DNA of 64,000 nucleotides from Thermoproteaceae archaeon (GTDB lineage: Archaea > Thermoproteota > Thermoprotei > Thermoproteales > Thermoproteaceae). Below the pieces are notes generated by a model. The model was given only the letters and a program-made list of their open reading frames with translations, did not search any database and was not told the origin of the DNA. Location of the stretch: assembly GCA_015521775.1 (NCBI GenBank), contig WANN01000009.1:1-64000 (forward strand), written 5' to 3'. Numbering within the stretch: position 1 is the first letter of the stretch; every line of letters begins with the position of its first letter. Made by a program: the position numbers and the translations under genes. Positions 4,859 to 8,700 of this stretch are shown piece by piece.

Positions 4859-5920
4859 TCACTCTAATAGCTTCACCATGCCCCTCAGCTTCAGGTACGT
4901 CGCGTAATCAATATATACCTTGTTGTTCAAATACGCCTCAACTGTGGGCACATCAGCGTTCCTCCTATCCTCTATTGCGTCAGTTACATGAAGCGCGAAG
5001 GCTATTGAGCCGGCCCCGCTGCCAAATGGCGCCAGGAGTATTCTGTCTCCCGGCTTAGCTAGAGAGTCCAGTATCCTTGCCAGCCCTATGAGCGCGGCAG
5101 CGTTATACGTGTTCCCTATATGCGTGACTACCAACCCCGGCTTGACCTTGTCCATGGGAAAGCCAAGCGTGGAGGCCATCCTCAACGGAAAACGTGTGTT
5201 GGGCTGGTGGAACACCACGTACGAAAAGTCGTCGACCTTGTAGCCATAGGCGCTCATAAGACCCTTCACTGCCTCACCTATATGCCTGAAATAGGCGGGT
5301 TCCCCCGTGAATCCTTCCCCATGCACGGGATACGGCGAGCCTTCCCTGCGCCAAAAGTCAGGGGTGTCGGAATTGTATGAATATACGGCCTCCACCTCCA
5401 CGGCAACCCCAACGCTACCCATCACGTACGCCGCGGCACCGCTGCTCGTAGTGTAATCCAGGTGTTCGCCGGGCTCTCCCTGGGCCGTATCTGTGCCTAC
5501 GGCAAGCCCGTACTTAGCCTTCCCGGACTCCACGAGTCCCAACGCGGCCAACATACCCTCTGCACCAGCCTTGCAGGCGAACTCCATGTCCACGACAGCC
5601 GCGTTGTTCTGTATGCCTAGAGCGTCCACCAGTATCGACGCCGTTGGCTTTACAGCATATGGCTTTGACTCGGATCCAACATACACCGCACCTATTTCCC
5701 TAGGGTTCACATTACCGCGCCTAATAGCGTTCAGCGAGGCCTCGACGGCCATGGTCGCGGAATCTTCGTCGACGCCTGCGACGCTCTTTTCCTCAACCAG
5801 GTACAGGTCCTTGATCCTCATAGGATCGTCGCCCCAGAGCCTGGCGATTTCTTCGGTCCTTATCCTGAAGCGCGGTATGTATACGCCCCAGCTCACTATG
5901 CCAGCCCTAGTCATGTCCAC
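4859..5920 (-). CDS. Hydroxymethylglutaryl-CoA synthase
   Basis: 353 residues, the usual archaeal length. It condenses acetyl-CoA with acetoacetyl-CoA to HMG-CoA, the second step of the mevalonate route to isoprenoid lipids. The catalytic triad is intact: Glu in VGSESKP (84), nucleophile Cys in EFACKAG (116), His in VVFHQPN (238). The frame opens at GTG 5920, but ATG 5914 two codons later is an equally good start; either overlaps the end of the DUF35 gene. Gene order thiolase-DUF35-HMG-CoA synthase is the conserved archaeal arrangement, known to form a channelling complex in which DUF35 holds the other two enzymes together. Confidence 0.92.
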
Positions 5921-6320
5921 CCGTAATTACAGGTCTAAATTTGTATCCGTAGTAAATTATGCCGTACCTCCCATCGGAAAAGTACCTCCGGTACACCAAC
6001 TCCATTTCGGCGCCCGGCTTAAGCCTATCAACATCCGCATCGACCACTTGGCCCACAACCCTAGCGCCGTTCAGATCCACAATGCCGATAACGAGGGGAC
6101 GCTGCTTCTCGAACTGCGGGGAGGTCTGGTAAACAACTGTGAACTCTATCAACGTGCCCCTACGCGGCAGTTCGACCGGCTCCATGTCTGTGGAGCCGCA
6201 CGTACACCTGATTTTCTGCGGGAAATGTATGGTTCCACATGCCCTGCATTTTGACGCCAAGAGCCTATAATACTGCTGTATGTTTCTCCAGAATATAGGT
6301 ACTGACTCTCTGCGGCTCAT
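5907..6320 (-). CDS. DUF35 OB-fold/zinc-ribbon protein of the thiolase-HMG-CoA synthase complex
   Basis: 137 residues. An N-terminal rubredoxin-like zinc ribbon has Cys at 25, 28, 39 and 41 (note the close C-T-C spacing of the second pair), followed by a beta-rich OB fold (about 50-125). This is the architecture of archaeal DUF35 proteins that bridge thiolase and HMG-CoA synthase and share the CoA-binding site. It overlaps the thiolase-like gene by 4 bases (ATGA) and the synthase gene by 8-14 bases, so the three subunits are translationally coupled. Confidence 0.88.
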
Positions 6321-7441
6321 CTCGTCATGAGGATGCCTACGCCTATCCTATCTATGCCACCTATGCCGAACACTACGCCGCGCTCCACATGTTCGTTGAG
6401 GTAAGGCGCCTTGCCTAGAAGCTCCCAAGCCACCTCAACAGTGGAGTACACGCTTGAGGCGCCCAGCGGATTGCCGCGGGCCTTGGCGCCCCCACTCATG
6501 TTCAGGAGATACCTGCTGTCGAAAAACCCTTCCCTGAGCAGTATAGGCGCCTTACCGAGGTCTGCGAGGCCGAGGGACTCCAACTGCAGCAGCCCTATTA
6601 TGCTGTAGGGGTCGTGCACAGATATGCTGAGCGGCCCGGTCCCGTCGGCCTTCTTGAGCAGCGGCACGCCGGCTGACCTCACCGCATCGAAGAAGAGCGG
6701 GTTGTCCCTCTCGGTGATATAGGCGTTGTTCCCCGCAATCCTCACTGACTGGACCTTCACGAAGGAGTCGGCAATCCTTTCATTACACAGCACAAGCGCC
6801 GCGGCTCCGTCCACATGAGGGGCCACATCGTATAGTCTAAGGGGGTACGCCACATGTTCGCTTTCAATTATGCTCTTTAAATCCACCTTCCTCCGCATAT
6901 ATGCATAGGGATTCTTGCTGCCCTTCTCATGCATGTTTATAGGCCACTGCGCTATGTCCTCATAGCCCATGCCATACCTCTTCATGTACATGTTTGCCAA
7001 CAACGCGGCCTCCGACGCAAGCGTGGCCCCAATATGCCTCTCGAAATGGGTATCAAGAGCCATGGACTGGAGCTCTGTGACATACGTGGTGGGCATATCG
7101 TGAGGCTTGTCCACGCCAACCACTGCGACGCACCTGTACATACCGCTGACCAACGCGTGATGGGCCAGCGCAATTGCCAGGGCCCCAGATGCATCCCCTC
7201 CCTCGACCCTAACAGGGGCCGTATGCCTCAAGCCTAGCTCGCCCAGTATGTACGATCCAGACAGATGCTGCTTCTCAAAAACTTCGGCACTGCTAGACGC
7301 AACAAACAACGCTTCTATCTCCGGGTTGCCCGCCTCAGACCAGGCGTCGAGCAGGGCACGGCCAGCTAGCTGGGAGAAGGACGCGTCATATAATCTACCC
7401 GGCTTTATTAGACTTGCGCCTACAAGATATACGTTTTCCAT
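6317..7441 (-). CDS. Thiolase-fold protein, catalytic residues replaced
   Basis: 374 residues, thiolase superfamily by overall sequence and by position in the mevalonate operon, where acetoacetyl-CoA thiolase is expected. Where the family has the nucleophile Cys (CASG), this protein reads VEGGDASGALA, an Asp at residue 83. The C-terminal GHP-x-GA motif is GNPLGAS, with Asn for His. The second catalytic Cys region reads FGIGGIDRIG without Cys. A His in SVHDPYS remains. Either it is a structural pseudoenzyme supporting the synthase and DUF35, with the real thiolase elsewhere, or it uses unusual chemistry. The leaderless start is supported by TTTATTTA about 26 bases upstream (7463-7473). Confidence 0.8.
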   Translation of the reverse strand: MENVYLVGASLIKPGRLYDASFSQLAGRALLDAWSEAGNPEIEALFVASSSAEVFEKQHLSGSYILGELGLRHTAPVRVEGGDASGALAIALAHHALVSGMYRCVAVVGVDKPHDMPTTYVTELQSMALDTHFERHIGATLASEAALLANMYMKRYGMGYEDIAQWPINMHEKGSKNPYAYMRRKVDLKSIIESEHVAYPLRLYDVAPHVDGAAALVLCNERIADSFVKVQSVRIAGNNAYITERDNPLFFDAVRSAGVPLLKKADGTGPLSISVHDPYSIIGLLQLESLGLADLGKAPILLREGFFDSRYLLNMSGGAKARGNPLGASSVYSTVEVAWELLGKAPYLNEHVERGVVFGIGGIDRIGVGILMTR

Positions 7442-7476
7442 CGAAACTTAAAAATGGCCGGTAAATAAAGGTTAGC

Positions 7477-8700
7477 ATGCACGACGATACTATGAAGGCC
7501 GAGGAAGCCCCCCTACACAAGCTCGACTTGCTCATCGGCGATTCCAATGAGGCGGCCGACCGAAGACGCAGGTACCTCGAGGAGAAACATGGAGTGGAAT
7601 TAAGGAGTATCGGCAGCACCGTCATAGACTTCAACGGTGTCGTGGGCCGCAACATTGAGAACCCTATAGGTGCAGCCCAGATACCGCTAGGCGTTGCGGG
7701 TCCACTAAGGATAAGGGGTCAACACGCCGTGGGCGATTATTACATACCTCTGGCCACCACAGAGGGCGCCCTAGTGGCGTCGGTCAACAGGGGCTGCAAG
7801 GTGGTTTCTGAAAGCGGCGGAGCCTACAGCGTTGTTTTTAGGAACGCCATGAGTAGGGCGCCTATTTTCAGACTTCCATCTATCGAAAAGGCTGTGGACT
7901 TTGTCCGGTGGGTACAGAGCCACATGGACGAGATTAGGAGGGAGGCGGAAAGCACCACTAGGCACGGAAAACTGCTTAATGTCGAGCCGTACATAGTCGG
8001 TAACAATGTGTGGCTGAGGTTCTCCTACTTCACCGGCGACGCAATGGGCATGAACATGGCCACCATAGCCACTGACAGGGCATGCAGCTACATAACGTCC
8101 CAATTTCCCGAGGCCAAGCTAGTGGCGCTGAGCGGCAACATGTGCGTCGATAAAAAGCCTAACGCAGTGAACTTCATACTGGGAAGGGGGAAAAGCGTCC
8201 TAAGCGAAGCCATAATCAAAGGCGATGTGCTGAACAGGTATGGGGTAGATGCGTGGGGCGTACACGACGTCAACATGCGGAAGAACATGCTAGGCTCCAC
8301 GGCAGCCCACGCCTACGGGCACAACGCCCATTTCGCAAATATAATAACCGCGATATTCATCGCGACGGGCCAGGACGTGGCCCAGGTAGTGGAGTCCAGC
8401 ATGGGAATAACGTGGACTGAGCCCCTGGAAAACGGCGACTTGTACATTTCTATTACGCTGCCGAGTCTCGAGGTGGGCACCGTCGGAGGGGGTACCTGGC
8501 TGCCGACACAGAGGGAGGCGTTGCAGCTGCTCGGCGTCTACGGCTCAGGGAATCCCCCAGGAAGCAACGCCGTCAAGTTCGCCGAGATAATAGGCGCAGC
8601 GGTACTTGCAGGCGAGCTGAACCTGCTCATCGCGCTTGCCAAGGGCGAGCTGGCCAGGGCACACGAGAGGTTGGGTAGGGGGAAGAGAGACCGGCAATAG
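7477..8700 (+). CDS. hmgA: HMG-CoA reductase (class I)
   Basis: 407 residues. It reduces HMG-CoA to mevalonate with NADPH. Catalytic residues are visible: Glu96 in ATTEGALVAS, Lys in DKKPNA (226-227), Asp300 in ATGQDVAQ and His396 near the end (RAHERLGR); the cofactor motif DAMGMNM is at 188-194. There is no membrane domain, as usual in archaea. It is divergent from the thiolase-DUF35-synthase operon with a 35-base shared promoter region; TATA-like ACTTAAAAAT lies about 27 bases before the ATG. The window thus carries the genes for the first mevalonate steps, head to head. Confidence 0.95.
   Translation: MHDDTMKAEEAPLHKLDLLIGDSNEAADRRRRYLEEKHGVELRSIGSTVIDFNGVVGRNIENPIGAAQIPLGVAGPLRIRGQHAVGDYYIPLATTEGALVASVNRGCKVVSESGGAYSVVFRNAMSRAPIFRLPSIEKAVDFVRWVQSHMDEIRREAESTTRHGKLLNVEPYIVGNNVWLRFSYFTGDAMGMNMATIATDRACSYITSQFPEAKLVALSGNMCVDKKPNAVNFILGRGKSVLSEAIIKGDVLNRYGVDAWGVHDVNMRKNMLGSTAAHAYGHNAHFANIITAIFIATGQDVAQVVESSMGITWTEPLENGDLYISITLPSLEVGTVGGGTWLPTQREALQLLGVYGSGNPPGSNAVKFAEIIGAAVLAGELNLLIALAKGELARAHERLGRGKRDRQ

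Follow-up and report, generated by a model that had tools for sequence, protein, structure and literature searches.

The thiolase gene of the mevalonate cluster studied here lies in a 64,000-nucleotide stretch of DNA from a Thermoproteaceae archaeon (the window, meaning the whole of that stretch), and its product lacks the diagnostic residues of an active mevalonate-type acetoacetyl-CoA thiolase: nucleophilic Cys, GHP His and second Cys are all missing. Judging from these residues, it is nearly certain that canonical thiolase chemistry has been lost, which gives strong support to the loss of activity proposed in a preliminary description of this DNA. We consider it probable that this pseudo-thiolase has been kept as an assembly and/or CoA-site subunit of the HMG-CoA synthase (HMGS), with acetoacetyl-CoA supplied from elsewhere. 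On balance we would also expect that in most of the Thermoproteota the annotated mevalonate thiolase is a dead subunit, usually acidic at the nucleophile position and the product of several losses, in an HMGS assembly that works without channelling and is fed by a free thiolase or directly by the autotrophic CO2-fixation cycle. A full-text literature search, with the 2018 PNAS paper on the complex outside its scope, found no account of the loss of the catalytic Cys.

The gene and its active site

The open reading frame of the thiolase (Table 1) scored above the Pfam thresholds for Thiolase_N and Thiolase_C_1, but reached only 182.7 bits against the NCBIfam equivalog AcCoTHIOL_METTL (NF053570), below the 600-bit threshold. 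The DUF35 protein corresponds in Pfam to zf-ChsH2 plus OB_ChsH2_C, and the HMGS, the sole one of the source genome, matched the equivalog NF003274 with 535.8 bits (cut-off 244). The preliminary description had the gene in the thiolase position coupled to DUF35 and HMGS, and this is what the gene borders show: the TGA stop of the thiolase and the ATG of DUF35 overlap as ATGA, an arrangement of translational coupling, and the GTG start of HMGS lies inside the DUF35 gene, with an overlap of 14 bases. The thiolase-DUF35-HMGS cluster is kept across families. The neighbouring HMGS is also as intact as had been claimed, with whole catalytic motifs (GSE84S, EFAC116KA and FH238QPN), of which Glu84 and Cys116 match Glu82 and Cys114, the residues named for the Methanothermococcus HMGS (PMC6392133).

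Table 1. Genes of the mevalonate cluster and diagnostic thiolase codons, in window coordinates.
Feature	Position	Strand	Remark
Degenerate mevalonate-type thiolase	6317..7441	minus	374 aa, catalytic Cys replaced by Asp83
DUF35 protein	5907..6320	minus	zinc ribbon + OB fold, ChsH2-type
Archaeal HMG-CoA synthase (HMGS)	4859..5920	minus	Glu84/Cys116/His238 intact
HMG-CoA reductase (HMGR)	7477..8700	plus	divergent neighbour, 35 bases from thiolase gene
Asp83 (GAT), nucleophile-Cys position	codon 7193..7195	minus	start of helix 82-98 in model
Val206, Cys position of ECAPISDGA loop	codon 6824..6826	minus	Cys in 28/38 intact relatives
Pro278, Cys/Ala position of HDCF/HDAF motif	codon 6608..6610	minus	
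Asn324, His position of GHP motif	codon 6470..6472	minus	

In the alignment with the solved thiolases of Pyrococcus furiosus (7YVY) and Methanothermococcus thermolithotrophicus (6ESQ), the window protein reads EGGDASG where intact thiolases read EAACASG, HDPY instead of HDCF or HDAF, and GNP in place of GHP (6ESQ itself reads GHA). The earlier readings of the nucleophile site as GGDASG and of GHP as GNP were thus borne out. The second Cys had likewise been described as absent, and absent it is by either definition, since the loop reads DVAP and the HDCF position is a Pro; what needs correcting is its usual site, which in the 38 intact mevalonate-type relatives is the ECAPISDGA loop (28 of them), with a Cys in HDCF as well in only six of these 28 and neither site filled in the other ten. 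A Cys displaced to another position can be ruled out, as there is none near residue 83 and the nucleophile falls in a single alignment column, with Cys in 38/38 intact and 0/94 degenerate proteins. Neither is this a sequencing error or a private loss. Asp is kept in all 35 orthologues of families f1 and f2 (taken as Thermoproteaceae and Thermocladiaceae), among them that of a same-genus genome (94% identical).

The AlphaFold2 model of the protein (pLDDT 95.3, pTM 0.94) places Asp83 at the start of helix 82-98, the site of the Cys in thiolases. Its best fold match in the PDB was the thiolase subunit of the Methanothermococcus complex (6ET9/6ESQ; TM 0.95, E 1e-35), followed by 7YVY, 4YZO and SCP2-type thiolases. 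Predicted fold and gene cluster together would place the protein within the archaeal thiolase/DUF35/HMGS complex.

Distribution, origins and selection

We read the thiolase beside HMGS (in genus g6, beside DUF35 and HMGR) in 132 sampled Thermoproteota genomes. The nucleophile Cys was missing in 94 of these mevalonate-cluster thiolases and kept in 38. At the nucleophile site of the degenerate copies we found Asp (54), Glu (22), Gly (8), Ala (3), Gln (2), Thr (2), Ser (2) and Leu (1). The GHP His is not always lost with the Cys: many Cys-less copies retain GHP. The scope first given to the loss, one organism or perhaps the Thermoproteales, was therefore too narrow: it is phylum-wide and has more than one origin. 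A search of the genome contigs with the window protein alone retrieved one near relative only. In genus g6 (G021, G026, G024; L075, L106-L109) HMGS has parted from a thiolase-DUF35-HMGR cluster in which the thiolase is still degenerate and conserved. There were also 13 sampled genomes with no thiolase adjoining HMGS. Most sampled genomes of families f13 and f44 (L076, L078, L085, L086; L129, L131-L133) are of this kind, and in the four examined an intact mevalonate-type thiolase was found away from HMGS. As the thiolase gene has gone from the HMGS neighbourhood in f13 and f44, adjacency is not essential.

On a thiolase tree from which the active-site columns had been taken out, three loss events were needed by parsimony, and forcing all degenerate rows together was rejected (AU test on a 44-row tree, p-AU 0.008). 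The nucleophile has thus been lost at least twice, and three times by parsimony. More than one loss is likely because shared long branches would bias the tree towards one clade, and a single clade was rejected all the same. In close pairs the degenerate genes showed dN/dS values of 0.03-0.09, similar to those of HMGR from the same pairs and indicative of strong purifying selection (one exception at 0.31 is a near-identical pair with dS 0.02, too close for judgement). Several residues are invariant in intact and degenerate forms alike, including Lys112, His171, Asp211, Asp277, Asn314 and the GG..G glycines, and the pocket positions 50, 82 and 141 were altered in several separate losses.

G020, which belongs to a different family within the same order, has an intact operon thiolase. 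The intact set of this genome (L048), whose gene order also differs from that of window positions 4859-8700, is less similar to the HMGS and pseudo-thiolase of the window than are their counterparts in family f24 and in others from outside the order. A horizontal transfer of the mevalonate cluster is possible.

Other thiolases in the same genomes

The preliminary description had suggested that acetoacetyl-CoA is made elsewhere and that a second intact thiolase should be looked for. In the source genome, which is 81% complete, we found an intact classical thiolase (G000:C30; NRVCSSG, NEAF, GHP) as well as two paralogues of archaeal type that keep the Cys (L003 with HDCF and GHP, L004 with HDAF and GHP). 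Such intact sequences in the same genome strongly support a supply of acetoacetyl-CoA from elsewhere. The genome has other thiolase-like genes as well: in paralogue L002 (G000:C34:68459-69577) the Cys lies one residue upstream (VEACAASG versus VEAACASG), with HDAF and GHP kept, and L005 and L006 (G000:C8:3912-7094) are adjacent convergent genes without the nucleophile Cys (PRK06065, PRK06066). In Thermoproteus tenax, TTX_0886 (equivalent to Tneu_0249 and Igni_1401) is the acetoacetyl-CoA beta-ketothiolase of the dicarboxylate/4-hydroxybutyrate cycle (PMC3189178). We treat the classical thiolases as orthologous to it on the grounds of family and rough gene position rather than a locus-tag match.

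A full-strength classical thiolase was present in nearly all of 40 sampled relatives from the order (in two fragmented genomes it was in pieces), and the lone relative without one was G020, precisely that with the intact operon thiolase. Across the phylum, a classical thiolase is encoded in 75 of the 94 degenerate genomes versus 2 of the 36 intact genomes tested (p = 4e-16, ignoring kinship and counting two untested genomes as lacking it). Pairing on the tree left two to three independent contrasts, in the expected direction and not significant. Of the 19 degenerate genomes that remain, 16 encode an intact Cys thiolase of the archaeal type, and overall another intact Cys thiolase is found in 91/94 degenerate genomes, while in most intact genomes the operon thiolase is the sole one. 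In family f49 (G239, G313; L135, L138 with L089, L093) a degenerate operon thiolase accompanies an intact mevalonate-type thiolase elsewhere, and the intact copy of G313 groups among the mevalonate-type thiolases in the tree. No Cys thiolase was found in three f29 genomes, G104 (L120), G164 (L117) and G230 (L208), though HMGS is present. The f29 thiolases are the degenerate operon copy and a Ser-type homologue (ENTSGSGG, HDM, GHP) like 4YZO/ST0096.

Matches to the HpaB family (PF03241), which mixes 4-hydroxybutyryl-CoA dehydratase with monooxygenase-like paralogues, occurred in 44 degenerate and 0 intact sampled genomes. A strict tie of the loss to the 4-hydroxybutyrate cycle was rejected, as G019 and several other degenerate genomes have no such match; by the same token, the cycle alone is insufficient to explain the loss.

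Alternatives and known systems

The channelling complex is presented as the archaeal way past an unfavourable first reaction in the synthesis of lipid precursors. Should ca. 70% of the sampled Thermoproteota indeed have a dead thiolase subunit, the channelling model cannot apply there. In the reading that we prefer, a former acetoacetyl-CoA thiolase subunit of the thiolase/DUF35/HMGS complex, now without thiolase chemistry, would be retained in the HMGS assembly, where it would act as a dimeric core for the docking of DUF35 and HMGS and would still provide one half of the shared CoA site. HMGS would draw acetoacetyl-CoA from the cell pool, in solution, a pool that the classical thiolase and, in autotrophs, also the CO2-fixation cycle presumably replenish. 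The loss of the Cys may have been tolerated or even favoured, since in a coupled, active form the thiolase would cleave external acetoacetyl-CoA back to acetyl-CoA. Some observations point against this reading: the classical-thiolase association rests on only two to three independent transitions, f29 is without a Cys thiolase and the thiolases of f13 and f44 are unlinked. If the reading is right, annotations of the first mevalonate enzyme would need re-examination, an example by annotation only being SiRe_1461, called AACT (PMC10465181). These genomes would also offer a natural experiment in which the structural and catalytic roles of the thiolase subunit are separated, and a testable tie of membrane-lipid synthesis to the autotrophic fixation of CO2.

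It is possible, if unlikely, that the protein is a neofunctionalised enzyme whose Asp/Glu pocket runs some other CoA-thioester reaction, for instance a hydrolysis, a decarboxylation or an aldol-type step. The acidic bias of the replacements (54 Asp and 22 Glu of 94) and the repeated changes in the neighbouring pocket (for example at positions 50, 82 and 141) across losses would fit such an enzyme, and thiolase-fold aldolases with DUF35 partners are known (PMC12329534). However, the gene still adjoins HMGS, and the replacement is not fixed, ranging from Asp and Glu to Gly, Ala, Gln, Thr, Ser and Leu, a spread not expected of a conserved catalytic residue. In the window protein, moreover, His276 takes the place of the aldolase Tyr of YD[HC][FY]; a steroid-type aldolase was ruled out on this motif, HDPY standing in its place. 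Rather less probable to us is a heteromeric helper, a dead subunit to which an intact thiolase from another locus is recruited, channelling being kept through this trans-acting catalytic partner. Pairs of ketosynthase and chain-length factor are a known analogue, and the f49 genomes G239 and G313, with an intact mevalonate-type paralogue in addition to their degenerate operon copy, would suit it. Yet the intact thiolase found in every Thermoproteaceae genome is the classical one, too distant for heterodimers to be expected, and in f13 and f44 all four of the intact mevalonate-type genes that were examined lie apart from HMGS.

Continued synthesis of acetoacetyl-CoA by the subunit, through a non-covalent condensation independent of Cys, strikes us as very improbable. 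The gene is in the right position for a thiolase and f29 has HMGS without any Cys thiolase, but the Thermoproteaceae proteins are without the nucleophile, the GHP His and a Cys at either second-Cys position, and 91/94 genomes encode an intact thiolase at another locus. We give hardly any credence to a vestigial gene on its way to being lost, a reading to which the 13 genomes without a thiolase beside HMGS might point. It is already contradicted by the selection test and by conservation across lineages, and the four of those 13 genomes that were examined do have intact, unlinked thiolases. An outright pseudogene is ruled out by the dN/dS values.

Our preferred reading, a catalytically dead subunit kept in the HMGS assembly, can be set against several known systems. 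The Methanothermococcus complex (6ET9/6ESQ) is built from the same three gene families, but its thiolase has Cys85 and makes a channelled intermediate, whereas Cys, GHP His and second Cys have gone from the window protein. A shared CoA site is reported for the thiolase/DUF35/HMGS complex (PMC12329534, PMC6392133). The steroid aldolases Ltp2 and Sal (6OK1; PMC12329534) also combine a thiolase fold and a DUF35 partner with the loss of thiolase chemistry; they differ in relying on the Tyr of YD[HC][FY], whereas the window protein reads His276-Asp-Pro-Tyr there and is encoded next to HMGS. ST0096 of Sulfolobus tokodaii (4YZO) is another archaeal thiolase-like protein devoid of the nucleophile Cys (NTSGSGG), although it keeps GHP and has Ser at the nucleophile, and its f29 relatives are not beside HMGS. 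The SCP2-thiolase-like protein of Trypanosoma brucei, TbSLP (5AB6), has the thiolase fold and was crystallised with acetoacetyl-CoA, and an aldolase instead of a thiolase role has been suggested for it (PMC12329534); unlike the window protein it is eukaryotic, has no DUF35 partner and carries a YDCF motif. PhlABC of Pseudomonas protegens (5M3K) has thiolase-like and HMGS-like subunits bridged by DUF35, one of them dead, a set for which the window has the corresponding genes. It is the mirror case, in which the thiolase-like PhlC is active and the HMGS-like PhlA has lost Cys and Glu and is yet needed for assembly (PMC6392133). With such a structural precedent, a scaffold or CoA-binding role for the pseudo-thiolase is plausible by analogy.
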